Positions 12,908-27,515 of a stretch of DNA of 45,768 bases are shown in pieces; position 1 is the first letter of the stretch; every line of letters starts with the position of its first letter. This DNA comes from an uncultured Gammaproteobacteria bacterium (GTDB lineage Bacteria; Pseudomonadota; Gammaproteobacteria; Pseudomonadales; UBA5518): positions 1 to 45,768 of the forward strand of contig CAIYPF010000115.1 of assembly GCA_903928015.1 (NCBI GenBank), in the 5' to 3' direction. The translations under genes were made by a program, and so were the position numbers. The notes under the pieces were generated by a model. That model made no database searches. It was not told the origin of the DNA and was given only the letters and a program-made list of their open reading frames with translations.

Positions 12908-14470
12908 TCAGCCGGCGATCTGGCTCCAGTTGTCGATCAGGTGAGCGGCGCTGCGCGCCGCCAGCGCGTGCACGGTGAAGGTGGGGTTCACTGCACCACT
13001 GGTGGGGAAGAGGCTGGAGCCGGCCACGAAGAGGTTGCCGACCCCGTGCACGGTACCGAAGGCGTCGGTCACCGAGGCGGCCGGGTCCTTGCCCATGATG
13101 GTTCCACCCATGTTGTGCATGGGCCCGATATTCCCCGCCCAGGCTTCTTTCGCGCCGCCGGCTTTGAGCACGGCGATGCCTTCGTCCCGGGCATGGTTCC
13201 AGAGCGCGACAGATGCCTCCGAACTGCTGTGGTTTACCGTGGCGAGCAGCAGGCCGCGCGCATCCGTCTTGCCGTCCAGCGTCACGCGGTTGTCTGCCAG
13301 CGGTGCGTCTTCCACCACGCCGGTCATCATCGCGAAGCCCCGCGCCGCGCGCTTCATGAAGTCATCCAGCGCAGGGCCGTAGAGATCCACGCGGCTCATC
13401 GCGATGCCCAGCAGGTCGTTGGGTTTCATCGCCTGCGCGATCAGCCACTGATAACTGCCGAAGGGCCCGCCGTCGCGCACTTTGGCATAGCCGTCCTGGT
13501 TGAGCAGTTGCCCGCCGGTGGCGCCCATGTGCGGCTGCGTGTCTTCGTCCCACAGGCCGAAAACGGGGCAGGCGAGGTGGATCATGACGTAACGGCCGAG
13601 TTGGTCCGATGCGTTCCCGATGCCGCCCGGCGAGCGCCCGCGCGAAGCAAGCAGCAGGCGCGAATTCTGGATGGTGGAGGCCGCGACAATCACGATCGCT
13701 GCCTCGGTGGTCTGGCGCGCGCCGGATTCATCGAGCCAGGCGACGCCGGTGGCGCGCGTGCCGGAAGCGTCCTGGAGGATCTCGACCACTTCCGCGCGAT
13801 TTTTCAGCACGGCGCCCGCCGCAAGGGCGCGGGGGAGGTAGGTGACCAAGGGGTTCGCCAGCGCACCGATCGGGCAGCCGGCATCGCACCAGCCGTCCCA
13901 GATGCAGGCCTTGCGCTCTCCCTCGGACGCGGTGCGGATGGCCAGAGGAATGGGTGAGGTCTTACGCCCCATCGCGGTAAAGCCGCGGCGGATGACATCT
14001 CCGTGCGGAAACACCGGCACCGGCGCCTGGGTATAGGGCGCACCTGCAGGGCGCCACACTTCCTGCGTGTGGTCGCCCGAGACGCCCACCTCCTGCTGGA
14101 TCGTGTCGTACCAGGGCTGCAGATCGGCGTATCCGATGGGCCAGTCGTGGTGGCGCTGGTGGCTGCTCGCCTCGTTGAAGTCTTCCGGGTGCAGACGTGG
14201 CCAGACGGCGTAGTGATGCACTGCCGCGCCGCCCGTTCCCCAGCCGGTGTTGTAGTTGTGGCCGACGGGTTGGGCGCCTGTCTCGATCACGGCTGATCCA
14301 CCCCACTTGAGCCGGCGTCCCCAGAGGCCGTTGCTCACGAGGTCCTGCGTGCCGCGTGCGGGCCCGGCTTCCAGTATCAGCACGCGTTTGCCCGCCTCGG
14401 CGAGCTTTGCCGCCATCAGGCTCCCCGCAGCGCCCGAGCCCACGATCACCGCATCGAAACGATCTGTCAT
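12908..14470 (-). CDS. GMC oxidoreductase, FAD-dependent
   Basis: A 520-residue FAD enzyme of the glucose-methanol-choline family. The dinucleotide motif VIVGSGAAGSLMA lies at residues 9-21, followed by VLILEAGP. The GGSAVIETGAQ and NYNTGWGTGG region binds FAD. A Cys-rich ACIWDGWCDAGCPIGALANP segment (about 190-210) is typical of gluconate-2-dehydrogenase-like members. The C-terminal GPMHNMGGTIMG and VNPTFTVHALAARSA hold the usual His and Asn active-site positions. It would oxidise an alcohol or sugar and pass electrons on. Its start overlaps by four bases the stop of a small Tat-type lipoprotein of the subunit-3 kind, so they probably form one periplasmic complex, with the larger subunit possibly exported with the smaller. 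No cytochrome subunit follows. The substrate is unknown. Confidence 0.92.
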   Translation of the reverse strand: MTDRFDAVIVGSGAAGSLMAAKLAEAGKRVLILEAGPARGTQDLVSNGLWGRRLKWGGSAVIETGAQPVGHNYNTGWGTGGAAVHHYAVWPRLHPEDFNEASSHQRHHDWPIGYADLQPWYDTIQQEVGVSGDHTQEVWRPAGAPYTQAPVPVFPHGDVIRRGFTAMGRKTSPIPLAIRTASEGERKACIWDGWCDAGCPIGALANPLVTYLPRALAAGAVLKNRAEVVEILQDASGTRATGVAWLDESGARQTTEAAIVIVAASTIQNSRLLLASRGRSPGGIGNASDQLGRYVMIHLACPVFGLWDEDTQPHMGATGGQLLNQDGYAKVRDGGPFGSYQWLIAQAMKPNDLLGIAMSRVDLYGPALDDFMKRAARGFAMMTGVVEDAPLADNRVTLDGKTDARGLLLATVNHSSSEASVALWNHARDEGIAVLKAGGAKEAWAGNIGPMHNMGGTIMGKDPAASVTDAFGTVHGVGNLFVAGSSLFPTSGAVNPTFTVHALAARSAAHLIDNWSQIAG

Positions 14471-15033
14471 GACCAGTCTCCCGCGGGTTCGATGTGTGCC
14501 ATATAGGGGACGCCGAGGCGCTCGAATCCGCCGCGTGTGCCATAGGCCACGTCAACAGCATCAGCCCTCAGCACGAAGTAGAAAAACGGCGCCGGTGCCG
14601 CCGCCCATGCGGTGGGCTTGCCTGCGGCGATGTCGCCCACGAGTGCGGCGACGGATGCTGCATCCAGCGCCTCGATCGCCTTGCCGAAGGTCTGCTTCGA
14701 CCAGACCTGTGCTGCTGCCAGTGCGGGCAGGTAGAAATCGGCGTAGGGCGCAGGAACGCCAAGGTATCTCAGCATCAGCATCGCCTGCTCGGGCGGCGCT
14801 GACAGTTGTGTTTCGAGGTAGTCGGCAAAGCCTGCGGCGCCAGCGCCTGGCGCGAGGGCATCCGCGAGTGCCTGGAAAGCGGCTCTGGCCGAGGCATCAA
14901 GCACCGTCTCCGGTGCCTGCGCAGGTGGCGCGGTAGCGGTGATGGAGGCCGCAGGTTCCTTGCCGCATCCGGCAAGTCCCGTGGCAATGCCGAGTCCGGC
15001 GGCGCCAAGGAGGATGAAGTCACGTCTGTCCAC
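14467..15033 (-). CDS. gluconate 2-dehydrogenase subunit 3-like Tat lipoprotein
   Basis: A 188-residue small subunit. The N-terminus, MDRRDFILLGAAGLGIATG, has twin arginines, a hydrophobic core and then LAGC (Cys at about 23), so it should be Tat-exported and probably lipid-anchored. The rest is helical (FQALADALAPGAGAAGFADYLE; ALDAASVAALVGDI), as in subunit 3 of membrane gluconate dehydrogenases, which carries the flavoprotein across the membrane. The start is GTG at 15033 behind GGGGGAA. The stop overlaps the GMC start by ATGA. A strong hairpin lies just upstream at 15059-15092, so expression may need read-through from the TonB gene or a promoter in that short gap. Confidence 0.8.
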   Translation of the reverse strand: MDRRDFILLGAAGLGIATGLAGCGKEPAASITATAPPAQAPETVLDASARAAFQALADALAPGAGAAGFADYLETQLSAPPEQAMLMLRYLGVPAPYADFYLPALAAAQVWSKQTFGKAIEALDAASVAALVGDIAAGKPTAWAAAPAPFFYFVLRADAVDVAYGTRGGFERLGVPYMAHIEPAGDWS

Positions 15034-15102: not shown

Positions 15103-17571
15103 TCAGAAGCTGTAACGCACGCCCACGGAGTAGAGACGCGGGTTGCGGTACGAGACCTCGTTGCAACCGCAGAGGTTGGCGAGGTCGTAGCCCTGCAGGC
15201 CCGCGCGCTCGTCGCTCAGGTTGCGGCCGGCCAGCGTGACCTGCCAGTCCTCTTCGGGGCTGACCCATGCAACGCTTGCGTTGTACATCACGTAAGCGTC
15301 GAACTTGTCTGCCGCGAAGTTCCGCAGGTTGTAGAAGAACTCGTCGGAGTAGGAGAAATCACCCTGTACCGACATCGTTCCGCCCAGTGCCTGCCACTCG
15401 TAGCGCACGAGGCCGGAGGCCTGGTACTCGGGGGTGTAGGTGGGCTTCACGTCCAGCGTCACGTCCTGCGAGGTGAGCGAGAGCGGAACCTTCTGCACTT
15501 CGGCATCCGTCCAGGAACCGCCGATCATGATGTCCCAGCCCTCGGCGGGCGACATCTGCAGCGAGAGTTCCGCGCCGGTCGTCTCTGCGTCGCGGTTGAT
15601 CACCACGCCACCGACGCCGGTGAACAGGAAGGCCTGGTAGTCGCTGTAGTCGTAATAGAACGCAGCACCGTTCAGGCGGGCGAGGCCGTCCATCAGGGTG
15701 GCCTTGAAACCGCCCTCGAAGCTCACCAGGACTTCTTCGTCGTAGGGCAGGCCGGCGTTGCCGACCTTGGCGTAGTTGCCGATCAGCGGGGCGTTGAAGC
15801 TGCCTGCCTTCACGCCGCGGTTGATGCCCGCGTAGAGCAGCAGATCGTCGGTCATGTGGTAGTCGAGCTGGATCTTGCCCGCCCACAGGTCGTCAGAGGT
15901 GCTGTCGGAGTAGGCACCCAGAGGACCGCTGGGGACGATGTCGCCCTCCACGTTCACGACATACACACCCTGATGCACCTCGGTGGGGCTGGTGGATGCG
16001 TAGAAGCCGTTGGTCATGTCGTAGTCTTTGTCTTCCCGCATCACGCGCAGACCCGTGATCAGCGTCAGCTGGTCGGTGAGGTCGTATTCGAGCTGGCCGA
16101 AGGCGGAGTAGGACTCGGTCTTCAGTTTGGCGTCGACGCCGATGTCGGTGCCCACGCCCATGGGCAGGATCGCGCCCTCGAGGATGCTGCCGATGGGAAT
16201 CTTCAGGCCGTTGATCGAATCGATGTCGATGCTGAGGTAGTAGAGACCTGCCACCCAGCGCATGGAATCGGATTCGCCGTTCAGGCGGAACTCCTGCGTG
16301 AAGCTGTTTGCGTCCATGGCAGCGTAGTTGCCGAGCTGGTTGACCGGCGCCGCGTCCACGTCGATCGACATGAACTTCTCGTAGTCCTTGTAGTCGGTGA
16401 TCGAGGTGAAGCTCATGCCGTCGGAGATGTCCCAGCTGACCGTGCCTGCAAGGCCCCAGGTATCGAGGTAGAAGGCATCTTCAAAAGCGAGGTCGCTGGA
16501 GGTGCGCAGCCCGTCTCCGTCCGGATCTTTGTAGCCGAAGAAGTCGCCGCCGGCGCGCGGGCGCGGTCCGGCGTTGATCAGGAAGCCGAGGTCGGCCGGG
16601 TCCCGGCCGTTGTCCGTACCGTCAGCCGCGATGCTCTGGCGCGTTTCGTTCGGGCCGATGTTGATGACGTTGATCAGTTCGCCCTGACCGCCCGATCCGT
16701 TGTAGATCCCGATTACCGGGATCGACTGGTAGGGGCCGGTCGAGAGATCGCTGTTGGCGATGTTGCCGCGCAACTCGACCCGGACGTCTTCGCTCACGTC
16801 GAAGTCGAGGATGCCGCGGGCAGCCTTGGTGTCGTCGTCGGCCATGTCAGCGCCTGAGCCCGCACCGGGCGAGCCGCCGACCGCGCGGAAGGGGTACTCG
16901 TTCTCCAGGTAGGGATCCTGGTTGTGGTAGAGGATCGCCACGCGACCGGCCACGCCGTCGGTGATCGGGCCGCCCACGGCTGCCTGCACGGTCATGTCCT
17001 TGGCGTCGCTCGGGCTGTCGAACTGGCCGTAGTTCAGGTCGACGTAGCCTTCCATCTCCTCGGTGTTGGGCTTGTTCGAGATGTAGTGGATCAGGCCGCC
17101 CGTGGCATTACGGCCGAAGAGGGTGCCTTGGGGGCCTTTGAGGATTTCAACGCGCTCGACGTCGAAGAGCGCGAAAGTCTGGGCCTGCGAGGAGGAGATG
17201 TAGCCCTCGTCGAGGTAGACGGCGTTGGGTGCTTCCACCACGTCGTTGAAGTCGTTCTGGGTAACGCCGCGGATGGTGAACTGGGTGTTCTGGCCGGCGA
17301 GGCTGCCGCCGATGTGCACGCCGGGCGTGAATGCCGCGATGTCCACGCTCTGCTTGATGCCGAGCGCTTGCATCTGGGTGCCGGTGAAGGAGCTCACCGA
17401 TATGCCTACGTCCTGGAGGTTCTGCTCCCGCTTCTGGGCCGTAACAGTGATTTCTTCGAGCACGCTGTCGGCGAGCGCCGCGTTGCCGACGAGTACGCCC
17501 GCGGCCGCAATGGCCAAGGCGAGCGGTGCGCGACGCGAGATGGCTCGGCGCGCGGTGGTGGTCTTCTGCAT
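15103..17571 (-). CDS. TonB-dependent receptor of the catabolic locus
   Basis: An 822-residue outer-membrane receptor. The signal peptide (about 1-35) ends in GNAALA; a TonB-box-like EEITVTAQKR follows, then a plug (to about 170) with VGISVSSFTGTQMQALGI, FTIRGVTQND, VYLDEGYISSS and VEILKGPQGTLFGRNATGG. The barrel ends with RLYSVGVRYSF, whose terminal Phe is the usual outer-membrane signature. This IroN/FyuA-like subtype is common beside aromatic and steroid degradation genes. The ribosome site GGAGGAG is 7 bases before the ATG. It is transcribed away from the hydrolase-oxygenase operon, with both promoters touching one palindrome at 17700-17728, so it is likely induced together with ring degradation and may import the substrate. 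A strong terminator follows the stop. Confidence 0.94.
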   Translation of the reverse strand: MQKTTTARRAISRRAPLALAIAAAGVLVGNAALADSVLEEITVTAQKREQNLQDVGISVSSFTGTQMQALGIKQSVDIAAFTPGVHIGGSLAGQNTQFTIRGVTQNDFNDVVEAPNAVYLDEGYISSSQAQTFALFDVERVEILKGPQGTLFGRNATGGLIHYISNKPNTEEMEGYVDLNYGQFDSPSDAKDMTVQAAVGGPITDGVAGRVAILYHNQDPYLENEYPFRAVGGSPGAGSGADMADDDTKAARGILDFDVSEDVRVELRGNIANSDLSTGPYQSIPVIGIYNGSGGQGELINVINIGPNETRQSIAADGTDNGRDPADLGFLINAGPRPRAGGDFFGYKDPDGDGLRTSSDLAFEDAFYLDTWGLAGTVSWDISDGMSFTSITDYKDYEKFMSIDVDAAPVNQLGNYAAMDANSFTQEFRLNGESDSMRWVAGLYYLSIDIDSINGLKIPIGSILEGAILPMGVGTDIGVDAKLKTESYSAFGQLEYDLTDQLTLITGLRVMREDKDYDMTNGFYASTSPTEVHQGVYVVNVEGDIVPSGPLGAYSDSTSDDLWAGKIQLDYHMTDDLLLYAGINRGVKAGSFNAPLIGNYAKVGNAGLPYDEEVLVSFEGGFKATLMDGLARLNGAAFYYDYSDYQAFLFTGVGGVVINRDAETTGAELSLQMSPAEGWDIMIGGSWTDAEVQKVPLSLTSQDVTLDVKPTYTPEYQASGLVRYEWQALGGTMSVQGDFSYSDEFFYNLRNFAADKFDAYVMYNASVAWVSPEEDWQVTLAGRNLSDERAGLQGYDLANLCGCNEVSYRNPRLYSVGVRYSF

Positions 17572-17679: not shown

Positions 17680-17708
17680 AGAATAGCCAGCGTCCTCTCG
17701 AAGTTCAA
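17680..17708 (-). promoter_or_regulatory. predicted leftward promoter of the TonB receptor
   Basis: Read on the minus strand, TTGAAC (17708-17703) and TATTCT (17685-17680) are 17 bases apart. The -35 box is inside the left arm of the 29-bp palindrome, so a bound repressor would block polymerase. Confidence 0.5.
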
Positions 17709-17728
17709 TAGACTTTCTATTGAACTTC
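17700..17728. promoter_or_regulatory. 29-bp palindromic operator shared by divergent promoters
   Basis: The arms GAAGTTCAATAGA (17700-17712) and TCTATTGAACTTC (17716-17728) are perfect 13-base inverted repeats around CTT. An overlapping smaller palindrome, ATTGAA-C-TTCAAT, covers 17719-17731. The site is AT-rich in a GC-rich region and lies between the receptor start (17571) and the hydrolase start (17800). Each arm contains a TTGAAC -35 box, one for each direction. The size and symmetry suit a dimeric MarR- or TetR-type regulator; the MarR-type gene at 26147 is a candidate. Confidence 0.75.
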
Positions 17729-17799: not shown

Positions 17800-18684
17800 A
17801 TGCGATCCATCCACCTCGACCTCCTCGGCACCGAGACCCGCTTCATTGACACGGGCAAGTACTGCTCCCGGGTCATCTCCGGCCGCGGCCAGGGTGAGCA
17901 CCTGTTCCTGATGCACGGTGGCGGCGGTCATGCCGAAACCTACTCGCGCAACCTGGTCGCGCTGTCCAAGGCCTGCCAGCCGCACGCCTTCGACTACATA
18001 TGGCACGGTATGTCCTCCAAGCCGGTGTACTCGAACGCCGGCCCCACGGAAAAAGGGCACTGGCTCTCGCAGTTCACCGACCAGTTGCTGAACCTGATGG
18101 ATCACATGGGCATCGAGAAAGCGGCGGTCGAGGGGGAGTCCCTCGGCGGCTGGATCGCGCTCGACATGGCCATCAATCACCCGGACCGCACATCCAAGCT
18201 GATCCTGAACACGGCGTGGGGCATGCACCTCGATCCCTCCAAAGTGCATGAGGGCGCGAGCGACCTGAAAGCGCTGCGCGAGACCTCCGTGAACGCGCTG
18301 ATGAACCCCACCCGCGAACTGCTGCGCAAGCGGCTCGACTGGCTGATGCCGCTCGGCGGCGTTACCGATGAACTGGTGGAGCTGCGGCTCGCGCTCTGGC
18401 AGGACGAGGAAACCCGCAACGCCCTGCTCGAGTACTACGAGCGCCTCTTCGCCGACAACATCGGAGAGTTCTATTTCAACGAGGAGCAGATCCGCACGAT
18501 CCGCTGCCCGACGCTCGTGCTCTGGACCGACAAGAACCCGATCCATGGCACCGACGCCGCCGACCGTCTCGAGGAGATCATCCCGGGTTCGACCAAGCAC
18601 GTGATGAAGGGCTGTGCCCACTGGCCGCAGTGGGAGCGTCCCGAAGAGCACGACACCGTCGTCTGCGATTTCATGCGTTCCTGA
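17800..18684 (+). CDS. alpha/beta hydrolase, meta-cleavage-product hydrolase-like
   Basis: A 294-residue alpha/beta hydrolase. The oxyanion-hole segment LFLMHGGGGHAETY is followed by the nucleophile elbow GESLGG (S114), an acid in LWTDKNP (D244) and the catalytic His in KGCAHWPQWERPEEH (H274). The residues around the His, with W and the PEE(H) tail, are like those of BphD/HsaD-type hydrolases that split the C-C bond of ring-fission dienoates. It is the first gene of the rightward operon, 35 bp before the Rieske oxygenase. An extradiol dioxygenase two genes on supports a role on its product. A simple esterase or a deformylase-like role (as in N-heterocycle pathways) is also possible. Confidence 0.85.
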   Translation: MRSIHLDLLGTETRFIDTGKYCSRVISGRGQGEHLFLMHGGGGHAETYSRNLVALSKACQPHAFDYIWHGMSSKPVYSNAGPTEKGHWLSQFTDQLLNLMDHMGIEKAAVEGESLGGWIALDMAINHPDRTSKLILNTAWGMHLDPSKVHEGASDLKALRETSVNALMNPTRELLRKRLDWLMPLGGVTDELVELRLALWQDEETRNALLEYYERLFADNIGEFYFNEEQIRTIRCPTLVLWTDKNPIHGTDAADRLEEIIPGSTKHVMKGCAHWPQWERPEEHDTVVCDFMRS

Positions 18685-18719
18685 TACCGCAATCACCGAT
18701 AACACCGAGGACCGCCAGA

Positions 18720-20063
18720 ATGAACGAAGCCGTACCTCCGAAGCGCCGCGCAGCACGCACGCGCGTCAACACGATCAGCAACAGCCGCACCAACGACCAG
18801 AAGACCCAGAGCCAGTACCAGCCCTACAAGGACGCGGCATGGGGTTTCATCAACCACTGGTACCCCGCGCTCTTCAGCGGTGAACTCGCCGAGGACCAGG
18901 TCGAGGGCATCCAGATCTGCGGCATCCCGATCGTGCTGCGCCGTGTCGACGGGCGCGTGCTCGCGCTGAAAGACCAGTGCGTGCACCGTGGAGTGCGGCT
19001 CTCGGCGAAGCCCATGTGCTTCAACAAGAAGACCATCAGCTGCTGGTACCACGGTTTCACCTTCGATCTCGAGACCGGTGGCCTCACCACCATCGTGGGC
19101 AACCCCGATGACAAGCTGATCGGCACCACCGGCATCACCACCTACCCGGTGGAGGAAATCTCGGGAATGATCTTCGTGTTCGTGCGCGAAGACGATTTCC
19201 CCGACGAGGACGTGCCTCCGCTCGCCAGCGATCTCCCCGTGCGTTTCCCGCAAAGCAGCGAGCGCTTCCCGCACCCGCTGTGGCCGGCGGCGCCCGGCCT
19301 GATGGACGAGAACGCAGTGGCGCTCGGCATGCATCGCACCGGCGACTGCAACTGGCGCATCGCCTGCGAGAACGGCTTCGACAACGCCCACATCCTGGTC
19401 CACCAGGACAACACCATCGTGCAGGCCATGAACTGGGTGCTGCCGCTCGGCATCCGCCCGGCGAGCGATGACTGCATCACGCTGATCGAGGACGAAAACG
19501 GCCCGAAGGGCCTGATGCAGTGGCTCTTCACCGACCGCTGGGAACCCATCCTCGAGAACAAGGAACTGGACGCGAAGGTCGAGGGCCTGAACGGCCGTTT
19601 CTACCGCACCTCCGTGGTGCTGCCCGGCGTGCTCATGGTCGAGAACTGGCCCGAAGAGCACATCGTGCAGTACGAGTGGTACGTGCCCATCACCGACGAC
19701 ACCTACGAGTACTGGGAAGTGCTGGTGAAGGTCTGTCCGACGGAGGAAGAGCGCAAGAAATTCGAGTACCGCTACGAGCGCGTCTTCAAGCCGCTCTGCC
19801 TGCACGGCTTCAACGACTGCGACCTTTACGCGCGGGAGGCCATGCACGAGTTCTATGCCGACGGCACGGGCTGGGACAACGAGCAACTCGTTGCCACCGA
19901 CGTTTCGCCCATCACCTGGCGCAAGGTGGCCTCGCGCTACAACCGCGGCATCGCAAAGCCGGGCAAGGGCGTCGACGGCGCGACCAAGACCTCGAGCATC
20001 CGTCTGCGCCGTATCTCGGACGGTGACGCGCCGGGCTATCGCGTGAAGAAGATCGAGGACTGA
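18720..20063 (+). CDS. Rieske non-heme iron oxygenase, CarAa-like terminal component
   Basis: A 447-residue ring-hydroxylating oxygenase alpha subunit starting at the ATG at 18720 (CGAGG upstream). The Rieske cluster ligands are C87, H89, C108 and H111 (CVHRG; CWYHG). The mononuclear iron ligands are H224 and H228 in NGFDNAHILVHQDN, plus an Asp in GFNDCDLYAREAM (about D368). WGFINHWYPALFSGEL, LPGVLMVENWPEEHIVQYEW and the DLYAREAMHEFYADG region closely follow the carbazole 1,9a-dioxygenase oxygenase CarAa, as I recall it. It has about 60 more residues, partly a basic N-terminal tail. CarAa-type enzymes are homotrimers needing no beta subunit, and none is encoded here. A reductase follows in 4 bp. 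It probably adds O2 to an aromatic or heteroaromatic ring; the true substrate is unknown. Confidence 0.92.
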   Translation: MNEAVPPKRRAARTRVNTISNSRTNDQKTQSQYQPYKDAAWGFINHWYPALFSGELAEDQVEGIQICGIPIVLRRVDGRVLALKDQCVHRGVRLSAKPMCFNKKTISCWYHGFTFDLETGGLTTIVGNPDDKLIGTTGITTYPVEEISGMIFVFVREDDFPDEDVPPLASDLPVRFPQSSERFPHPLWPAAPGLMDENAVALGMHRTGDCNWRIACENGFDNAHILVHQDNTIVQAMNWVLPLGIRPASDDCITLIEDENGPKGLMQWLFTDRWEPILENKELDAKVEGLNGRFYRTSVVLPGVLMVENWPEEHIVQYEWYVPITDDTYEYWEVLVKVCPTEEERKKFEYRYERVFKPLCLHGFNDCDLYAREAMHEFYADGTGWDNEQLVATDVSPITWRKVASRYNRGIAKPGKGVDGATKTSSIRLRRISDGDAPGYRVKKIED

Positions 20064-20067
20064 GACG

Positions 20068-21093
20068 GTGGGTTCTGACTGCTCCGTGTCATTGCGCTTC
20101 GCTGATGGCGTGGAGCAGCGGTTTTCCGTTCAGCCCGGGCAGAGCGTGCTGGAGGCGGCGCTCGCTGCCGGCGCACCGGTTCTCAACCAATGCCGCAGCG
20201 GCAGTTGTGGCTCCTGCGTGGCGCGCCTCGCACAAGGCGACGCAAGGATGCGCAGCGGCGCGGCGAGCTCGCTTCTGCCGGGCGAGCAGGCGCAGGGGCA
20301 GCGACTGCTCTGTCTCACCGAGGCACACGCCGACAGCACCTTCGAGTTCGCCTACGACAGCCAGACCGCCGCTGGCGGTCCTGTCAGCGCCAGCGCTTTC
20401 GTCGATGCCATAGAGCGCATCGCGCCGGATGCGGTGCGGCTCAAGCTCGAGCTCGCCGAAGGCGACTGGTTCGATTTCCAGCCCGGGCAGTTCATCGAAC
20501 TCACGGTGCCCGGCACAGATGCCAGGCGCCGCTACTCCATGGCTTCCTCTCCCGCAGACCTGCCCTCGCTGGAACTGCTGGTGCGGCTGCTTCCCTCGGG
20601 AGCCATGTCCGATTACCTGCGCGACCGCGCCAGTGTGGACGACGTGATTTCGCTCACCGGGCCCTACGGTGCGTTTTTCCTGCGCCCGAAGGTGAAAGCC
20701 CCGCACATCATGATCGCTGGCGGCACAGGCCTCGCGCCGATGATGTCGATGCTGGACGCCATCCGCGCGCGGCCGGGCATCAAACCTCCCGTGCTGCTCA
20801 GTTTCGGTTGCGCCACGCCGGAGGGCTTGTTCAACCTCGAGGAACTCGAACTCCGCTCGCACTGGATGCCCGCCCTGCAGGCGCGTATTTCCGTGGATGC
20901 GGGCGATCCGGGCGCGGGCTGGCGCATCGGCAATCCGGTGCAGGCGATCACGGCCGAAGACATCCGTGACCCCGCAGGTGTCGCGTATCTGTGCGGGCCG
21001 CCGGGCATGGTCCGTGCGGCGCGCGAGCATCTGGAGCGGCTCGGGCTCGATCCGGCCAACATTCACGCGGAGCAGTTCGTCGCCAGCGAGTGA
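20068..21093 (+). CDS. 2Fe-2S/FAD/NAD(P)H reductase of the oxygenase
   Basis: A 341-residue electron-transfer protein starting with GTG four bases after the oxygenase stop. The N-terminal plant-type ferredoxin domain has C42, C47 and C50 (QCRSGSCGSC) and C82. The FAD domain has RRRYSMASSP, and the NAD domain has IAGGTGLAPMMSML and ends in the CGPPGMV motif. This order, ferredoxin first, is that of the benzoate-dioxygenase reductase and CarAd type. It would take electrons from NAD(P)H to the Rieske centre. Since no separate ferredoxin gene lies in the operon, it may reduce the oxygenase directly, making a two-component system. Confidence 0.93.
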   Translation: MGSDCSVSLRFADGVEQRFSVQPGQSVLEAALAAGAPVLNQCRSGSCGSCVARLAQGDARMRSGAASSLLPGEQAQGQRLLCLTEAHADSTFEFAYDSQTAAGGPVSASAFVDAIERIAPDAVRLKLELAEGDWFDFQPGQFIELTVPGTDARRRYSMASSPADLPSLELLVRLLPSGAMSDYLRDRASVDDVISLTGPYGAFFLRPKVKAPHIMIAGGTGLAPMMSMLDAIRARPGIKPPVLLSFGCATPEGLFNLEELELRSHWMPALQARISVDAGDPGAGWRIGNPVQAITAEDIRDPAGVAYLCGPPGMVRAAREHLERLGLDPANIHAEQFVASE

Positions 21094-21146
21094 TGCTTTC
21101 GCCTTTCGCAAAACGTCCCGACAACGACAACAGGGGAGAAAAAGCA

Positions 21147-22019
21147 ATGGGAGTTTCGGCACTGGGTTACGTGGCCCTCAATGTCTCGCAACCGGCCCGC
21201 TGGGTCGAGTTCGCTACCGGGCTCTTCGGGGTCGAAGTGCGCAAACGCGCCAAGGGCAAGGCCCTCGACCTGCGCATCGACGAGCGCCATCACCGCTTCA
21301 GCCTTTACCCGTCCAAGACCGATTCGGTGGCCGCGCTCGGTTGGGAAGTGGCGACCATGACGGAACTCGATGCACTCGCAGAGGCGCTGCGCGCCGAAGG
21401 CATCACGGTGAAGGCGGGCAGTGCGGAACTCTGCGAGGAGCGCAAGGTGCGTGCGCTCTACAGTTTCCATGAGCCCCATATCGGCGTGGCCACCGAGATT
21501 TTCTACGGCGCACTGGTATCGAACACCCCATGGGTGCCGAGCCGCGGTGTCTCCGGCTACAACACGGGTTCCGGGCTTGGTCTGGGGCATATCGTGTACT
21601 GGGTGAAGGACATGGCTGCCACCACCGCTTTCTACGAGCGTGTGATGGGTTTCAGCATTTCCGACACCATCGCCTGGGACGACAACGACGCGATCTTCAT
21701 GCACTGCAATCCGCGGCACCACACGCTCGCGCTGGTGGCAGAGGCCCCGGGACGCCCCGGCGGCAAGCTGAACCACATCATGCTCGAGGCACGCACTCTG
21801 GATGACGTGGGCTACGGCTTCGATATCGCCAAGGACATGAACATCCCGATGATCTTCGAGATGGGCAAGCACACCAACGACCACATGCAGTCCTTCTACG
21901 TGGTCACGCCCTCCGGCTTCGGCATGGAGTACGGCTTTGGTGGCCGGCTGATCGGCGATGACTGGGAGATACGCCACTACGACCAGCCCATGCTCTGGGG
22001 CCACCGGCAGCCCAAATGA
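21147..22019 (+). CDS. type I extradiol ring-cleavage dioxygenase, BphC-like
   Basis: A 290-residue vicinal-oxygen-chelate enzyme starting at the ATG at 21147, with AGGGGAG about 9 bases before. The iron ligands are H148 (GLGHIVYWV), H210 (KLNHIMLE) and E261 (GMEYGFGG), in the order seen in 2,3-dihydroxybiphenyl 1,2-dioxygenase. Active-site companions are the NPRHHTLAL His pair and KHTNDHMQSFYVVTPSG. The two-domain repeat and length fit the BphC/HsaC group. It would open a catechol next to the hydroxyls. Classical carbazole and dibenzofuran operons of the CarAa type use a type III (LigAB-like) enzyme for this step, so the pairing here is unusual. It overlaps the amidase start by four bases. 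Confidence 0.93.
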   Translation: MGVSALGYVALNVSQPARWVEFATGLFGVEVRKRAKGKALDLRIDERHHRFSLYPSKTDSVAALGWEVATMTELDALAEALRAEGITVKAGSAELCEERKVRALYSFHEPHIGVATEIFYGALVSNTPWVPSRGVSGYNTGSGLGLGHIVYWVKDMAATTAFYERVMGFSISDTIAWDDNDAIFMHCNPRHHTLALVAEAPGRPGGKLNHIMLEARTLDDVGYGFDIAKDMNIPMIFEMGKHTNDHMQSFYVVTPSGFGMEYGFGGRLIGDDWEIRHYDQPMLWGHRQPK

Positions 22020-23326
22020 ACGCCCCGGCAGATCCGGCGCGTCTCGGAGCCGCCCAGGCTGCAGCGGCCATCGCTGCGGGCCGGTTGGGCGCCGAGGAAT
22101 TGCTGAAGGCGCTGCTTTCGCGCATTGATGCCCGTGATGGCGAAGTGCAGGCCTGGGCCTGCGTAGATGCGGAAGGCGCATGGTCGCAGGCGCGAGCTCT
22201 GGACCGCCGTGGGCCCGTGGGTCCCCTGCACGGCGTGCCTGTGGGCATCAAGGACGTCATTGACGTTGCCGGCATTCCATCCGCCTACGGCAGCCCGGCG
22301 TTTGGCAAGAACATCCCCGGAGCCGATGCCGCCTGCGTGGCACGTCTGCGCCGGGCCGGTGCGCTTATCCTCGGCAAGACCGTCACTGCCGAATTTGCCA
22401 CGTATCATCCCGGTCCCACCCGCAACCCGCGCAACCGGGAGCGCACGCCGGGCGGTTCCTCCAGCGGCTCCGCGGCTGCAGTGGCCGATTGCCAGGTGCC
22501 GCTCGCGCTGGGCACGCAGACTGCGGGTTCCGTGATCCGGCCGGCGAGTTTCTGCGGGATTTTCGGCTTCAAGCCGAGTTTCGGTCGTTACGACATCGCG
22601 GGCATGCTGCCGACTGCGCCCAGTCTGGACACGCTCGGCAGTTTTGCGCGCAGCGTCGAGGACATCGCTCTCCTCGATGCCGTGCTGGCCGACGAGGAGC
22701 AGATCGCGTTGCCAGAGCGGCGCGAAGTGCGCATAGGCATCTGTCGCAGCCCGGCATGGGAGCAGGCCTCGCCTGACATGCGCCACACTCTCGAGGCCGC
22801 AGGCCTGCTGCTGTCGCAGGCCGGGTGGCGCGTCGAGGAAGTCAGCATGGGCGCTGCCTTCGAGCGGCTCGCCGCTGCGCAGGCCGTGCTGCATCGCCAC
22901 GAATCCTACCGCTGCCTCGGCGTGATCCGCAGGGCCCATGCGGATCTGGTGAGCGAGGTCTTCCGCAATTTCATCGACGCCGGCGAGCGCGTCACGCCCG
23001 AGGAATACGCCGAGGCACTCGCGACGCAGGCCGCGTGCAGGGCGGAACTCGACGCCATGCTCCCTCCCGACACGCTGTGGCTCACGCCCGGTGCGCCCGG
23101 CGTGGCGCCCGAAGGCATCGCCGCCACCGGCGATCCGGCATTCAGCCGCATATGGACCGCGCTCGGTGTGCCCTGCCTCGGATTTCCTGCGGCGCTCGAT
23201 GCCGCCGGCATGCCGCTCGGGTTGCAGTGGATCGCCCGGCGCGGCGCTGATCGCGCGCTGCTCTCTGCGGCCGCTGAACTCTGCCTCGTGCTCGGCGCGG
23301 GCCGTCGCATATCCTTTCCCGACTGA
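22016..23326 (+). CDS. amidase signature family enzyme
   Basis: A 436-residue amidase. The Ser-cisSer-Lys triad is visible: Lys in GVPVGIKDVIDVAG (about 78), the bridging Ser in TPGGSSSGSAAAVAD (about 152) and the nucleophile in QTAGSVIRPASFCG (about 175). Such enzymes hydrolyse amides to acids and ammonia or amines. The ATG overlaps the extradiol gene's stop by ATGA, so it is translated with the ring-cleavage enzyme. This strongly suggests that the catabolic substrate, or its ring-fission product, carries an amide or N-acyl group. It is not the GatA subunit, since no gatB or gatC is near and the spacing is that of a catabolic operon. The exact substrate is unknown. Confidence 0.93.
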   Translation: MNAPADPARLGAAQAAAAIAAGRLGAEELLKALLSRIDARDGEVQAWACVDAEGAWSQARALDRRGPVGPLHGVPVGIKDVIDVAGIPSAYGSPAFGKNIPGADAACVARLRRAGALILGKTVTAEFATYHPGPTRNPRNRERTPGGSSSGSAAAVADCQVPLALGTQTAGSVIRPASFCGIFGFKPSFGRYDIAGMLPTAPSLDTLGSFARSVEDIALLDAVLADEEQIALPERREVRIGICRSPAWEQASPDMRHTLEAAGLLLSQAGWRVEEVSMGAAFERLAAAQAVLHRHESYRCLGVIRRAHADLVSEVFRNFIDAGERVTPEEYAEALATQAACRAELDAMLPPDTLWLTPGAPGVAPEGIAATGDPAFSRIWTALGVPCLGFPAALDAAGMPLGLQWIARRGADRALLSAAAELCLVLGAGRRISFPD

Positions 23327-23347
23327 TCGCACCTTCCAGGAGACTCC

Positions 23348-24673
23348 ATGGAACCGACCGTCCAGAATCCGCTGAGCGCCGAGCAGCAGGCCCACTACGA
23401 GGCGGCCTGTGAACGGCTCGATCCGGAGCGCCTGAAGCGGCTGCTCTTCGACATCACCAACATCCACAGTCCCACGGGCGCCACGCGGCAGGTCTGCGAG
23501 TTCCTCGCCGATCACATGCAGAGCGTCGGTCTCAAATCCCGCTACCACCCGATGAGCGAGATTTCGGGCAACGTGCTTGGCGAGAAGCGCGGTTCCGGTG
23601 GTGGCGCCACGCTGCTGCTCTACGCGCCCATCGACACTCACCTCGAGGGCGATGCAACGGATTTCCCGTGGGCTGGCCCCAAGCAGTACGTCGACCTCAA
23701 GCCCGAGGCGAAGCAGGTCGGGGACTGGATCTACGGACTCGGCTCCTCGAACCCCAAGGCCATGGTGGCCACGCTGACAGAGATCAGCACCGCGCTGATC
23801 GAGGCGGGCATTCCGCTGAAGGGAGACCTGAACCTCGGCTTTGCCGACGGCGGCATGCCGGTGACCATTCCGCAGCGCCACAACGCGGGCATGTCCAATG
23901 GCGTTCACCATCTGCTGAACCGCGGCATGGCGCCGGATTTCGCCATCATCATGAAGCCCTGGAACTGGGTCTATCACGAGGAACCCGGCATGGGCTGGTT
24001 CCGCGTGACGGTGAAGGGCACGCTGGGCTACGCGGGTGTGCCGCGCGGCTTGCCGGAGTTCCGCAGTTCGGTGGTGCCGAGCGCAACGCTGATTCCCGAA
24101 CTCGAGCAGTGGCTGATCGACTACGCCGAGCGCAACACATCGGGCATCATCCAGCCGCACGGATGGATCGCCGGCGTGCGCTCGGGATGGCCGGAGCGCC
24201 CGGCTTTCCCGTCCGCGGCCACCGAGATTTTCCTCGACGTGCGCATCAATCCGCGCACCACTCCCGGCGATGTCAAAGCGCAGTTCGCGGAGTTCATCGC
24301 GGCCTTCCGCGCACGGCATCCGGATATCGATCTCGACTGGGAGATGTACGGCTCTGCGCCCGGTGGCACCACGGATCCTTCCAACTGGATCATCCAGAGC
24401 GCGCGCCGCGGCTGGGAACACATCGAGGAGCGCGCTTACCCCAAACCCGACATGCTCGCCGGCCAGACGGACGGCGCTGCGCTGCGACGCCTCGGCGTGC
24501 CCACGGCCCGGATGGGATGGCCTTGGCCTGCGACGGGTTCGCCCGAACCCATCGCTGAAGGCCTGGGCGGCATGGGCGCCACCTACATCCCCGATCTCAT
24601 CCCCTGTGCGCGCAAGATCATGTACTCGGTGATCGATACGCTTACGCGGTCGCGCGGGGAGATGGGTCTGTAA
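23348..24673 (+). CDS. M20-family-like protein lacking usual metal ligands
   Basis: A 441-residue protein with the M20 peptidase/deacylase outline: N-terminal ITNIHSPTGATRQVCEFLAD, a dimerisation domain near GWFRVTVKGTLGYAGVPRG, and a C-terminal lobe with AGQTDGAALRRLGVPTARMG. The metal-binding positions differ. The usual GHxDVV reads YAPIDTHLEG, the GRGxxDxKG motif reads GLGSSNPKAM (Asp to Asn), the DEE pair reads ADGGMP, and the C-terminal His region reads GGMGATYIPD. I therefore doubt a classical di-zinc hydrolase. It may bind a substrate, use other ligands, or be a pseudo-enzyme. It is the last gene of the operon, 21 bp after the amidase, with AGGAGA before the ATG. The alignment was made by eye. 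Confidence 0.8.
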   Translation: MEPTVQNPLSAEQQAHYEAACERLDPERLKRLLFDITNIHSPTGATRQVCEFLADHMQSVGLKSRYHPMSEISGNVLGEKRGSGGGATLLLYAPIDTHLEGDATDFPWAGPKQYVDLKPEAKQVGDWIYGLGSSNPKAMVATLTEISTALIEAGIPLKGDLNLGFADGGMPVTIPQRHNAGMSNGVHHLLNRGMAPDFAIIMKPWNWVYHEEPGMGWFRVTVKGTLGYAGVPRGLPEFRSSVVPSATLIPELEQWLIDYAERNTSGIIQPHGWIAGVRSGWPERPAFPSAATEIFLDVRINPRTTPGDVKAQFAEFIAAFRARHPDIDLDWEMYGSAPGGTTDPSNWIIQSARRGWEHIEERAYPKPDMLAGQTDGAALRRLGVPTARMGWPWPATGSPEPIAEGLGGMGATYIPDLIPCARKIMYSVIDTLTRSRGEMGL

Positions 24674-25131: not shown

Positions 25132-26133
25132 TCAGACCTCGATGACGAGTTTGCCGAAGTGCTGTCCGCGCGGCAGTGCCTCGTAGGCAAGTGCGGCCTC
25201 GTCGAAACCGAAGCGGGTATCGATCACTGGCTGTATGCCGTGCAGGTCGATGGCGCGGTTCATGGCGAGGAAATCCTCGCGATGTCCCACCGTGATGCCG
25301 CAGAGGCGGATGTGGCGGAACAGCATGTCGGGCACCGAGATTTTCGCTTCCAGCCCGGAAAGCACGCCGATCACGGAAATATGGCCGCCCACCGCCACGC
25401 AGCGCATCGACTGCGCGAGCGTGTCTGCGCCACCGAGTTCCACCACCAGGTCGACGCCGCGTCCGCCCGTGATCTCCTGCACACGTGAGCCCCAATCGGT
25501 GGTCTCGCGGTAATTCACCACGTGTGTGGCGCCGAGTGTGCGTGCACGTTCGAGTTTTTCATCGCTGCCGGAAATGACCGTGACCTCGGCCCCTGCCATC
25601 CGCGCGAATTGCATTGCGAAGGTGGCGACTCCGCCGGTGCCCTGCACCAGCACGTGTTGCCCCGGACGCAGATTGCCCTCGGTGAAGAGCGCCGACCATG
25701 CCGTTAGCGCGGCGCAGGGCAGCGTTGCTGCCTCGGCAAAATCGAGCGATACCGGCTTGTGTACCAGTGCTGTGGCGGGCAGGCAGATGTGCTCGGCCAG
25801 TACGCCGTCGTGCTCGCAGCCCAGCGATGCCGCATGGTTGCCCGCAGTGGCGGGCCCCGCCTGCCAGTCCGCGTAAAAGCAGCCGACGACAGCATCGCCT
25901 GCAGCGAAGCCCTGCACGCCCGGGCCCACGGCTTCTACCGTGCCCGCGCCATCGGAGAGCGGGATCACGCCGCGTTTGTTCGGGTAAAAGCCTGCGAGGA
26001 TCCCGAGGTCACGGGAGTTGATGGAGGCGGCGCCCAGCCTGACGAGCACCTCGCCGGCACCCGGCACCGGAATGGACTCTTCTGCGCAGACCAGGCCTGC
26101 GGCACCACTTTCCTGCAGTCGGTAGGCTTTCAT
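25132..26133 (-). CDS. MDR-family NADPH:quinone reductase-like oxidoreductase
   Basis: A 333-residue medium-chain dehydrogenase/reductase. The GroES-like N-terminal domain has SINSRDLGILAGFYP and the VIPLSDGAGTVEAVGPGV motif. The Rossmann part has HVLVQGTGGVATFAMQFARMAGA and VISGSDEKLERARTLGATHVVNY. The zinc-ligand cysteines of alcohol dehydrogenases are not in the usual places, so it belongs with quinone reductase or enoyl-reductase-like members that use NADPH. It is the last gene of a leftward operon, 13 bp after the MarR-type regulator. It may reduce an unsaturated or quinoid intermediate of the nearby aromatic pathway. Confidence 0.9.
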   Translation of the reverse strand: MKAYRLQESGAAGLVCAEESIPVPGAGEVLVRLGAASINSRDLGILAGFYPNKRGVIPLSDGAGTVEAVGPGVQGFAAGDAVVGCFYADWQAGPATAGNHAASLGCEHDGVLAEHICLPATALVHKPVSLDFAEAATLPCAALTAWSALFTEGNLRPGQHVLVQGTGGVATFAMQFARMAGAEVTVISGSDEKLERARTLGATHVVNYRETTDWGSRVQEITGGRGVDLVVELGGADTLAQSMRCVAVGGHISVIGVLSGLEAKISVPDMLFRHIRLCGITVGHREDFLAMNRAIDLHGIQPVIDTRFGFDEAALAYEALPRGQHFGKLVIEV

Positions 26134-26146
26134 GCGCAGTTGCTCC

Positions 26147-26671
26147 TCAGAGGTCGTGGTTGAAGGCGGCCGCGTTGCGGGCCGATTCCTCGTAGATGCC
26201 GGTCATGATCGAGAGTGTCTGCGCAGCCTGCTCGGTGCGGTGGTCTATGTCGGAGAGCGCGCGCAGGTTCTTGGTGAGCATCTCGGCGCGGATCTTGGCG
26301 TACTCGTCGGTGATCTGCGTGCCGCGGGCGGTGATCTCGTAGACGAAGTTCTTGGTGCCCTTTTCCTTTTTCTTGCGCACCAGACCTTCGGATTCGAGCT
26401 TGCGCAAGCTGTACTGGATGTTGGGCATGTCGTCGCGGTTTATGAGCCTCGCGATGGTGGCCGTGCTCTTGGGACGGTCCTGCATGCGGATCACGTGCAG
26501 CATCACGTGCTCGCCGTACTTCAGGCCCGAGGAACCCGTGAGCTCGCCGATGGTGACGATCCAGCGCGCGAAGGCCTCCTGGAAACGGATCGCCGAGTAC
26601 TCGAGTTCGGTGATGTTCAACTCGGTCTCGTCTTTCGCGAGATGCCAGTGGCGGTAGTAGCGCGATTCCAT
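26147..26671 (-). CDS. MarR-type winged-helix transcriptional regulator
   Basis: A 174-residue regulator. The central winged-helix domain (about residues 45-125) shows KYGEHVMLHVIRM, the helix-turn-helix STATIARLINRDDMPNIQYSLRKLESEGLV and a basic wing RKKKEKGTKNFVYEIT. Long helices at both ends would form the dimer. The family often represses catabolic operons until an aromatic acid or thioester binds. It is 13 bp from genes on both sides in a leftward operon. The palindrome at 17700-17728 is a candidate target, but no copy of it lies in front of this operon, so the link is inference. Confidence 0.85.
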   Translation of the reverse strand: MESRYYRHWHLAKDETELNITELEYSAIRFQEAFARWIVTIGELTGSSGLKYGEHVMLHVIRMQDRPKSTATIARLINRDDMPNIQYSLRKLESEGLVRKKKEKGTKNFVYEITARGTQITDEYAKIRAEMLTKNLRALSDIDHRTEQAAQTLSIMTGIYEESARNAAAFNHDL

Positions 26672-26684
26672 CCGGGCGGCCGCC

Positions 26685-27449
26685 TCAGAACACCGAGGGA
26701 ACGGAGGCGAACAGCGCGTCTGCGGTGCGCGCCGGCGAGGGATAGGCCCGCTTGCTGTGACTCAGGCCGAGGTCCAGCAGCGTTTCGCAGAGCTTGAACG
26801 CCACGAGGCCGGGATTGAGCAGCGGCACTTCGAGGCGCTCGCTCAGCCACGCATGCGACTGGTGCATGGTGGTGGAGCCGAGGATCAGCACGTCGGCGCC
26901 GTCCTCGTCGATCGCGGCGCGGCACTCGCGCAGCAGTTTGTCGAAAACGATCTCTTCCTTGCCCGCCAGCAGTTCGGCGGTGTCGGGACGCGTACCGATG
27001 TGGCGGATGGAGGCGAGGCGGTCTTTCAGGCCTGTCTCGCGAGCGGTTTTCTCGTACATCCAGAACCACTCGGGCCACATCGTGACCACCGAGAAGCGCC
27101 GGCCGAGCATTGCGGCGGTGTGGAAGGAGCTGTGTGCAGGCCCCACCACGGGAATGCGGAGTCGCGAGCGCAGTGCGTTCAGCCCCGAATCGCTCATCGA
27201 GTTGATGCACACCGCTGCGTAGCCCTCTTCCTCGGCGGTGGCGCCGGCTTCGAGGACGAAGACATCGGAGAGCGCGCCCTCGTACTGCGAATCGAGGATC
27301 GCGGCGCCATTGCGCGTGCCGAAGAACTCCACGGAAACACCGGGCCGCAGCAGCTTGGGCGGGATCTGCGCGGCGAAGGCGGGCAGTGCTTCGGGCGGGA
27401 TCGGGATCGGCAACAGCATCTTGATGCGCGTGCTGGCGGGCTCGCTCAC
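26685..27449 (-). CDS. Asp/Glu/hydantoin racemase family protein with Ser in place of both Cys
   Basis: A 254-residue protein starting with GTG at 27449, 7 bases after AGGAGA; the upstream in-frame ATG lacks a site. The overall pattern is hydantoin-racemase-like: VVGPAHSSFHTAAMLGRRFSVV, DGADVLILGSTTM, PLLNPGLVAFKLCETLLDLGL and SKRAYPSP. The two catalytic cysteines of the family normally lie in ACFxDPGL and LGCAGM. Here these read NSMSDSGL and LGSTTM, so both are serine. Classical two-Cys racemisation is therefore unlikely; an isomerase, decarboxylase or binding role is possible. It is the first gene of the operon with the MarR and MDR genes. The alignment was made by eye. Confidence 0.8.
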   Translation of the reverse strand: MSEPASTRIKMLLPIPIPPEALPAFAAQIPPKLLRPGVSVEFFGTRNGAAILDSQYEGALSDVFVLEAGATAEEEGYAAVCINSMSDSGLNALRSRLRIPVVGPAHSSFHTAAMLGRRFSVVTMWPEWFWMYEKTARETGLKDRLASIRHIGTRPDTAELLAGKEEIVFDKLLRECRAAIDEDGADVLILGSTTMHQSHAWLSERLEVPLLNPGLVAFKLCETLLDLGLSHSKRAYPSPARTADALFASVPSVF

Positions 27450-27515
27450 GGGGCGGTCTCCTGGGTTGATTTCGTGGCGCTCCGGCGCGGCGTACACGAG
27501 CCGGATGAGGCGCCT

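Follow-up and report, generated by a model that had tools for sequence, protein, structure and literature searches.

A probable 2-quinolone operon in an uncultured gammaproteobacterium: an M20-fold protein and an amidase as candidates for removal of the ring nitrogen

Background

A six-gene operon on contig CAIYPF010000115.1 of an uncultured gammaproteobacterium (assembly GCA_903928015.1; the whole contig, 45,768 nucleotides (nt) long, is referred to below as the window) probably serves the degradation of 2-oxo-1,2-dihydroquinoline (2-quinolone, which arises from quinoline) or of a close derivative by the 8-hydroxycoumarin route, with an M20-fold protein and an amidase releasing the ring nitrogen. 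Judged by its sequence, the oxygenase of the operon is an orthologue of 2-oxo-1,2-dihydroquinoline 8-monooxygenase (OxoO), and the pathway can be assigned with fair confidence. As the system of OxoO and its reductase OxoR is already known, novelty is limited; the interesting part is the M20-fold protein and the amidase as a nitrogen-removing pair.

Quinoline, which consists of two fused rings with nitrogen in one of them, is a toxic pollutant of coal tar and wastewater. Its breakdown through 2-hydroxyquinoline, 2,8-dihydroxyquinoline and 8-hydroxycoumarin has been described from metabolites in the portions cited here of PMC9029321 and PMC11945285, and no paper naming the genes for removal of the ring nitrogen, or the genes around OxoO, was found in the open-licence literature. 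The operon and its relatives single out two genes for this step, both of which can be expressed and tested, and if it is true that the M20-fold protein works without metal, the known range of the M20 fold would be extended.

Results

The operon and its oxygenase

The six open reading frames are all on the plus strand and span positions 17800-24673. Parts and coordinates agree with those listed in the initial annotation of this DNA, which had been made from the letters alone (aa, amino acids):

17800..18684, plus strand: alpha/beta hydrolase, 294 aa, candidate C-C (meta-cleavage product) hydrolase or lactonase (Pfam Abhydrolase_1; G-x-S-x-G at residue 112)
18720..20063, plus strand: OxoO-type Rieske oxygenase, 447 aa, without beta subunit (Rieske and PF11723 domains; match to 1z01)
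20068..21093, plus strand: OxoR, [2Fe-2S]/FAD/NAD reductase (BenC-like), 341 aa, GTG start (Pfam Fer2, FAD and NAD domains; C-x4-C-x2-C)
21147..22019, plus strand: type I extradiol ring-cleavage dioxygenase (BphC-like), 290 aa (Pfam Glyoxalase/BphC_D1; LGH, HHT and MEY motifs)
22016..23326, plus strand: amidase-signature hydrolase, 436 aa, with a 4-nt overlap with the extradiol stop (PF01425)
23348..24673, plus strand: M20-fold protein, 441 aa, candidate aryl C-N hydrolase without the presumed metal-site residues (match to 5k8p; predicted fold)

The listed frame of the oxygenase begins earlier, at 18630; the gene was taken as 18720-20063. The gaps between consecutive genes are 35, 4, 53, -4 and 21 nt. 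The stop codon of the extradiol gene overlaps the ATG of the amidase gene (ATGA), and the translational coupling proposed for the amidase is right at the sequence level.

Among solved structures the window oxygenase matched the OxoO of Pseudomonas putida 86 (1z01) with E 3.6e-251 and carbazole oxygenases with E values between 1e-84 and 1e-88. Its identity to the P. putida 86 enzyme was 77% over 428 aa, and to carbazole oxygenase 40%. The Rieske motifs C-x-H (residue 87) and C-x2-H (residue 108) were found, as were the 2-His-1-carboxylate iron motifs GFDNAHILVH, common to 1z01, and FNDCDLYARE. In a tree of 87 rows, with midpoint rooting for drawing only, the P. putida 86 enzyme stood among Pseudomonas sequences and the window enzyme among gammaproteobacterial and sphingomonad rows, and CarAa lay outside the OxoO rows on a very long branch. 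The phylogeny suggested as a check in the initial annotation places the window with OxoO, and the name CarAa-type given there to the oxygenase was wrong at the subfamily level.

An FeS-flavin reductase gene adjoins the oxygenase gene, and the cofactor motifs are intact in both products. Neither a beta subunit nor a separate ferredoxin was found by Pfam, at the gene level, among the six operon frames (the rest of the genome was not searched for them), as had been noted before. OxoO/OxoR is a two-component system in which the absence of both is normal; since OxoO is accompanied here by an OxoR-type reductase, ferredoxin and beta subunit are expected to be missing. The partners of CarAa are a ferredoxin and a type III extradiol enzyme. 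On plasmid pIC001B a CarAa-like gene lies beside a ferredoxin subunit and a protein annotated as AmmeMemoRadiSam system protein B, a putative type III extradiol subunit; neither had a match in the window by tblastn at E 1e-4, a search in which a control protein was found. Angular dioxygenation of a carbazole- or biphenyl-type compound, for which the common PF11723 domain and the rank of carbazole oxygenases as the next family among solved structures could be adduced, is extremely improbable in view of the identities (40% versus 77%) and of the unmatched pIC001B partners. A CarAa/carbazole identity was rejected on the grounds of identity, the tree, the type I extradiol enzyme and the lack of a CarAc/CarBaBb-like match in the window.

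Gene order in relatives

A scan of species genomes yielded 110 oxygenase relatives, the best 80 of which were kept; with plasmid p1 of Cupriavidus necator C39 (L008) these make 81 loci, a set from which the CarAa-type loci L009 and L010 are omitted. Counts based on 82 loci include the window and pick frames differently, and their figures differ slightly. OxoO relatives occurred in Pseudomonas, Stutzerimonas, Cupriavidus, Paraburkholderia, Massilia, Thauera, Zoogloea, sphingomonads, Acinetobacter and others. OxoR was found in 74, the M20 protein in 69 and the amidase in 71 of the 81 loci; where at least 9 kb was available on both sides (n = 51) the figures were 49, 48 and 50. OxoR was present in all 69 M20 loci, and in 50 of them the M20 gene was no more than 200 nt away from it.

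The order OxoO-OxoR-extradiol-amidase-M20 recurred in 17 of the 81 other loci, 13 of which also have the same hydrolase gene ahead of it, and three of the 17 (L011-L013) are of the window's own genus; because of this recurrence the arrangement is not due to chance. An alternative order, OxoO-OxoR-M20-amidase, was seen in 14 loci. Conservation of the neighbourhood, another check proposed in the initial annotation, is borne out by these counts; its description of the operon as a mosaic is not supported for the core of OxoR, M20 and amidase, the variable parts being the extradiol enzyme, the hydrolase and the amidase subtype.

In the genus of Pseudomonas panipatensis (G067, the genome behind L042), 6 of 25 genomes had the M20 protein, and the same 6 had OxoO. 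The probability of such a coincidence is 1 in 177,100 (5.6e-6), uncorrected for kinship. Among 369 class-sampled genomes M20 relatives at E 1e-20 were detected in three, the window's own genome and two with 29-30% identity.

Two observations concern single loci. In Pseudomonas sp. A-1 (L085) two OxoO-type genes are 5.8 kb apart (at 4180 and 9995), one of them 91% identical to the P. putida 86 enzyme. The operon is also found, with 91% identity, on the L013 contig, which bears the title of a Klebsiella pneumoniae metagenome-assembled genome; in the tree this locus falls beside the window and rows from uncultured gammaproteobacteria, and the Klebsiella pneumoniae label looks doubtful.

Linkage to quinoline 2-oxidoreductase

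The strongest evidence for the substrate class is the gene for the large subunit of quinoline 2-oxidoreductase (QorL), which is no more than about 6 kb away from OxoO in L072, L080 and L086. The L072 protein matched 1t3q with 1061 bits, the next solved relative giving 506; L080 and L086 hold the same QorL family, and the L086 protein is 66% identical to that of L072. The whole arrangement of the window is found in L072, and in L080 as far as the amidase, where the contig ends. The initial annotation could not match the gene set to a known pathway; the OxoO identity and the three QorL loci point to the quinoline (8-hydroxycoumarin) pathway. Its suggestion that the substrate might be a nitrogen heterocycle giving an amide-bearing product agrees well with a quinoline/2-quinolone operon. 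Another type of molybdenum hydroxylase was placed near OxoO in L069, L074, L077 and L082 by family clustering (one of them a fragment), and in three loci by a stricter search.

The route given in the cited part of PMC9029321 runs from 2-hydroxyquinoline to 2,8-dihydroxyquinoline, then to 8-hydroxycoumarin and ammonium, and through 2,3-dihydroxyphenylpropionate to meta-cleavage; the cited part of PMC11945285 reports conversion of 2,8-dihydroxyquinoline to 2,3-dihydroxyphenylpropionate in Pseudomonas stutzeri.

The M20-fold protein

The M20-like frame gave no Pfam match at 0.001, and its NCBIfam M20 matches were far below the cut-offs. Its sole relatives by sequence among solved structures, at E 0.1 or better, were chains of 5-nitroanthranilate aminohydrolase (5k8p, E 6.7e-19). 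With a predicted model, whose pLDDT (predicted local distance difference test) score was 84.3, Foldseek ranked the same enzyme first (E 1.4e-31), and VIA-align, applied to the structures ranked by Foldseek, gave it Z 38.9 with a root-mean-square deviation of 2.9 over 395 residues, the next other entry reaching Z 32.8. M20 structures filled the list of fold matches at Z 25-39, and the product of 23348-24673 is predicted to have the M20 fold.

The metal motif was compared by sequence alignment alone, with 66 of the 71 members of the OxoO-linked family, retained after a length filter; the structure alignment covered 29 of 37 non-redundant M20 sequences. The ligands of M20 metallopeptidases (HxD, Asp, Glu, Glu, His) were not kept in the 66 aligned members, which have P94, N135, G169 and K203 at the motif positions in every case and T412 in 65. 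Two relatives not linked to OxoO (L118, L121) keep His, Glu, Glu and His there. When the aminohydrolase is taken as reference, its His corresponds to Pro94 and its two Glu to Gly169 and Lys203; at the C-terminal His position (T412) the aminohydrolase itself is not covered by the alignment. The M20 motif suggests that the His/Glu/Glu positions are metal ligands.

A related arrangement was noticed in G026, a genome of the same taxonomic order, where L120 (3-7472) encodes two Rieske oxygenases (about 44% identity, one partly masked), a reductase (40%) and a partial M20 protein (38%), whose metal motif likewise lacks its first His and Glu; DUF1329 and DUF1302 genes adjoin. This sister module suggests that the oxygenase-reductase-M20 set serves more than one substrate.

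The amidase

The nearest solved structure to the amidase was malonamidase E2 (E 9.7e-67), and in an alignment with it the Lys/Ser/Ser motifs were kept (GIKD at 77, GGSSSG at 146, AGSVIRP at 170). The protein also matched the indoleacetamide hydrolase model, below its cut-off; the second amidase of a relative passed this cut-off (601 versus 532). Malonamidase E2 and indoleacetamide hydrolase are primary-amide hydrolases. 6-Aminohexanoate cyclic dimer hydrolase was likewise among the matches.

Ring cleavage and downstream steps

By its sequence, with an intact 2-His-1-Glu motif, the extradiol enzyme is assigned to type I (BphC class). It scored 286.5 bits with TIGR03213 (biphenyl-2,3-diol 1,2-dioxygenase), below the cut-off of 366.45, and matched 1han among solved structures with E 1.1e-56. 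The best NCBIfam model for the alpha/beta hydrolase was HsaD (103 bits, cut-off 400), and a lactonase is a candidate role for this protein. A relative of the window extradiol enzyme was present in 30 of the 81 loci, each of which had at least one alpha/beta hydrolase of two families. In the sphingomonad loci L026, L035, L057 and L079 the window hydrolase is missing and the other family is found instead, and several loci hold both; the two families may be interchangeable.

Aldolase, acetaldehyde dehydrogenase, hydratase, QorL and maleate isomerase gave no match in the window (tblastn as above, with one reference protein each and two for the hydratase). Contig C204 of the same genome encodes an aldolase and an acetaldehyde dehydrogenase above the NCBIfam cut-offs, a DmpE-like hydratase (390, cut-off 409) and an HsaD-like hydrolase below the cut-off. 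The absence of hydroxypentadienoate genes noted earlier is correct for the window and does not extend to the genome; the genes on C204 would serve the operon.

Reduction of the side chain has precedents in the cited part of PMC7913881, according to which XenA of P. putida 86 reduces 8-hydroxycoumarin and the alcohol dehydrogenase HcdE of P. mandelii, encoded near a cupin-like gene, reduces 7-hydroxycoumarin. A gene of the zinc alcohol dehydrogenase (zinc-ADH) type was near OxoO in 40 of the 81 loci, its likeness to HcdE being one of family, not taken from the HcdE sequence; a cupin gene was likewise found in 40. Neither had a tblastn match in the window.

Flanking genes and possible regulation

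The operon is flanked by the following features:

15103..17571, minus strand: TonB-dependent receptor, upstream and divergent; possible substrate uptake (PF00593/PF07715)
17700..17728, no strand: perfect palindrome of 29 nt (12-nt arms, 5-nt spacer), 71 nt before the first start codon; candidate operator
25132..26133, minus strand: MDR-family (zinc ADH/quinone reductase-like) oxidoreductase, downstream and convergent; possible C=C reductase (Pfam)
26147..26671, minus strand: MarR-type regulator, downstream and convergent (winged-helix PF13463)
26685..27464, minus strand: Asp/Glu-racemase-fold protein, downstream and convergent; provisional start codon, the open frame extending to 27497 (PF01177)

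In the three closest relatives (L011, L012, L013) the corresponding first gene is likewise preceded by a near copy of the palindrome; loci beyond these had other palindromes or none, and no copy of this one. The MarR protein, relatives of which are present in 32 of the 81 loci, might bind the palindrome. The TonB receptor family was near OxoO in 14 of the 82 loci, and the MDR oxidoreductase was kept near the operon in L011, L013, L016, L017 and L059.

The nearest solved structures to the racemase-fold protein, found in 35 of the 81 loci, were allantoin/hydantoin racemases. Of its 30 members, 29 passed a length filter and were aligned; in all 29 both presumed racemase Cys positions, placed by alignment to allantoin racemase, whose solved chains include Cys-to-Ser mutants, are Ser, and a GSTTMHQ stretch is conserved (Q in 28 of 29). 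The protein was rejected as a maleate isomerase: both catalytic Cys positions are Ser, and the true maleate isomerase is a separate family.

A luciferase-type flavin monooxygenase of the SfnG/RutA group (11746-12852, plus strand) is conserved (76-79% identity) in the neighbourhood of the OxoO operon of the sphingomonad loci L017, L018, L021, L029, L037 and L059; a role in the same pathway, on a C-N bond or another bond to a heteroatom, is conceivable. A GMC oxidoreductase with a gluconate 2-dehydrogenase subunit 3-like protein is encoded at 12908-15033 (minus strand), and the GMC family is near OxoO in 5 loci, the window included.

Discussion

From the gene identities, motifs, predicted fold, gene order and linkage we infer the following reactions and the order of the nitrogen-removal steps. 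OxoO and OxoR would, as orthology suggests, hydroxylate C8 of 2-quinolone, and the M20-fold protein and the amidase, candidates for the ammonium-releasing step, would free the ring nitrogen as ammonia (2,8-dihydroxyquinoline to 8-hydroxycoumarin/2,3-dihydroxycinnamate). In the preferred order water would displace the amide nitrogen at C8a in an aromatic substitution like that of 5-nitroanthranilate aminohydrolase, giving cis-2,3-dihydroxycinnamamide, and the amidase would then hydrolyse this primary amide; 8-hydroxycoumarin would be the lactone of the resulting acid. Aryl C-N cleavage is placed before amide hydrolysis because the amidase is nearest to primary-amide hydrolases; moreover, an amide nitrogen should leave more readily than a free amine, and loss of the metal would thereby be eased. 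Cleavage of the catechol ring would fall to the BphC-like enzyme, with reduction of the side chain either preceding or following it; the alpha/beta hydrolase would split the cleavage product into 2-hydroxypenta-2,4-dienoate and a C4 acid, and the hydratase, aldolase and acetaldehyde dehydrogenase of C204 could complete the breakdown. The maleate isomerase family lies near the operon in 5 of the 81 loci, which would be expected if the side chain remained cis, and which suggests that it can do so through cleavage.

A more specific proposal, which we put forward tentatively and consider rather doubtful, is that the OxoO-linked M20 family could be a metal-free aryl C-N hydrolase in which the invariant K203 takes the place of a presumed metal-ligand Glu. 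Acting on 8-hydroxy-2-quinolone by nucleophilic aromatic substitution, it would drive out the lactam nitrogen and, together with the amidase, would supply the nitrogen-removal step that is missing from the quinoline-to-8-hydroxycoumarin pathway in Pseudomonadota at large.

The two nitrogen-removing enzymes might act in the reverse order, a variant that overlaps the pathway above and appears possible though somewhat unlikely. Here 8-hydroxy-2-quinolone would first have its lactam opened by the amidase, giving cis-3-(2-amino-3-hydroxyphenyl)acrylate, whose aromatic amine the M20-fold protein would then exchange for a hydroxyl. Such an order would fit the reaction of the aminohydrolase on a free aryl amine, which its entry names also indicate, and amidase-signature enzymes such as 6-aminohexanoate cyclic dimer hydrolase also open lactams; but a free amine is a poor leaving group, the presumed metal-site residues are missing, the amidases look more like primary-amide hydrolases, and ring closure back to the lactam should be favoured. 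It is quite unlikely that cleavage of an aminophenol ring by the extradiol enzyme precedes deamination, with the M20-fold protein or the amidase taking the nitrogen from an open chain. The position of the window extradiol gene between reductase and amidase could be read in this way, but the 14 loci with OxoO-OxoR-M20-amidase have no extradiol gene in between, and the cited part of PMC9029321 puts 8-hydroxycoumarin and ammonium ahead of ring cleavage.

Several results on the substrate weigh against degradation of 2-quinolone by the 8-hydroxycoumarin route. In the window's own genome (G000, estimated to be 97.2% complete, 220 contigs) there was no QorL match at 1e-60; its molybdenum hydroxylases, with at best about 30% identity to a QorL, were rejected as candidates. 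Of 34 genomes searched, 33 of them with OxoO, only two gave a QorL-grade match (at least 66%), and both had been chosen for having it. Most of these hosts cannot start from quinoline by Qor. As QorL is rare among the searched genomes, the operon would usually serve hosts that start from 2-quinolone or that have another first enzyme or substrate, and since its own genome gave no QorL match the window host's substrate is probably 2-quinolone or a relative. A start from 2-quinolone is described for Thauera in a cross-feeding pair in the cited part of PMC7193041, a text from which the gene words searched for are absent. Genes for MMPL, DUF1329 and DUF1302 proteins are near OxoO in 21, 20 and 16 of the 82 loci, mostly in Pseudomonas and Oxalobacteraceae, and these loci may handle a more hydrophobic substrate. 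Taking the QorL results and these genes together, it is a distinct possibility, overlapping the preferred pathway, that the real substrate here is some other natural 2-quinolone or lactam N-heteroarene and that quinoline is used only where Qor has been added; the same gene order beside QorL in L072, and in L080 up to the contig end, and the 77% identity of the window OxoO to the quinoline enzyme argue against this.

Other points against the proposed pathway concern single steps. The metal-site residues of aminohydrolase relatives are replaced in the M20 family, and its chemistry may differ; L022, L048 and L084, which have full flanks, have no M20 gene nearby; and the window hydrolase scores far under the cut-offs for C-C hydrolases. 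No maleate isomerase match at 1e-15 was found in the window's own genome, and only 9 of the 30 genomes searched had one; because of its absence from the own genome and from 21 of the 30 in all, these hosts would have to reduce the double bond or treat the acid otherwise. Two further routes appear in the cited part of PMC9029321, one by way of anthranilate, which is proposed there, and one by way of 5,6-dihydroxyquinolinone, which is named; therefore not all quinoline use would follow the 8-hydroxycoumarin route.

Comparison with known systems

The OxoO/OxoR system of P. putida 86 has the same two-component layout with an FeS-flavin reductase as the window. The oxygenases (PDB 1z01) are 77% identical with Rieske and iron-site motifs in common. 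The window differs in that oxoR directly follows oxoO and is followed by the extradiol, amidase and M20 genes in one operon, and in its gammaproteobacterial host, whose genome is without a QorL match. With CarAa, the oxygenase of carbazole 1,9a-dioxygenase (PDB 1ww9), the window oxygenase shares the homotrimeric Rieske family PF11723, but the identity is 40%. 5-Nitroanthranilate aminohydrolase (PDB 5k8m-5k8p) has the nearest fold to the M20-fold protein, and both have Asn at the position of the usual bridging Asp; the identity is 22%, and the OxoO-linked family has Pro, Gly and Lys in place of the His and two Glu at the M20 metal-motif positions of the aminohydrolase.

Plasmid p1 of C. necator C39 (NZ_CP068436) shares OxoO (77%), OxoR (58%), M20 (74%) and MarR (53%) with the window and also has an amidase; in contrast to the window, no extradiol or hydrolase gene lies in between, the amidase belongs to another subgroup (31%), and the stretch carries no annotated gene. 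L072 of Altererythrobacter sp. XM-24bin4 has hydrolase-OxoO-OxoR-extradiol-amidase-M20 as in the window and, in addition, the QorL, maleate isomerase, hydratase, acetaldehyde dehydrogenase and aldolase families; as far as can be read from its genes, this is a near-complete quinoline set.

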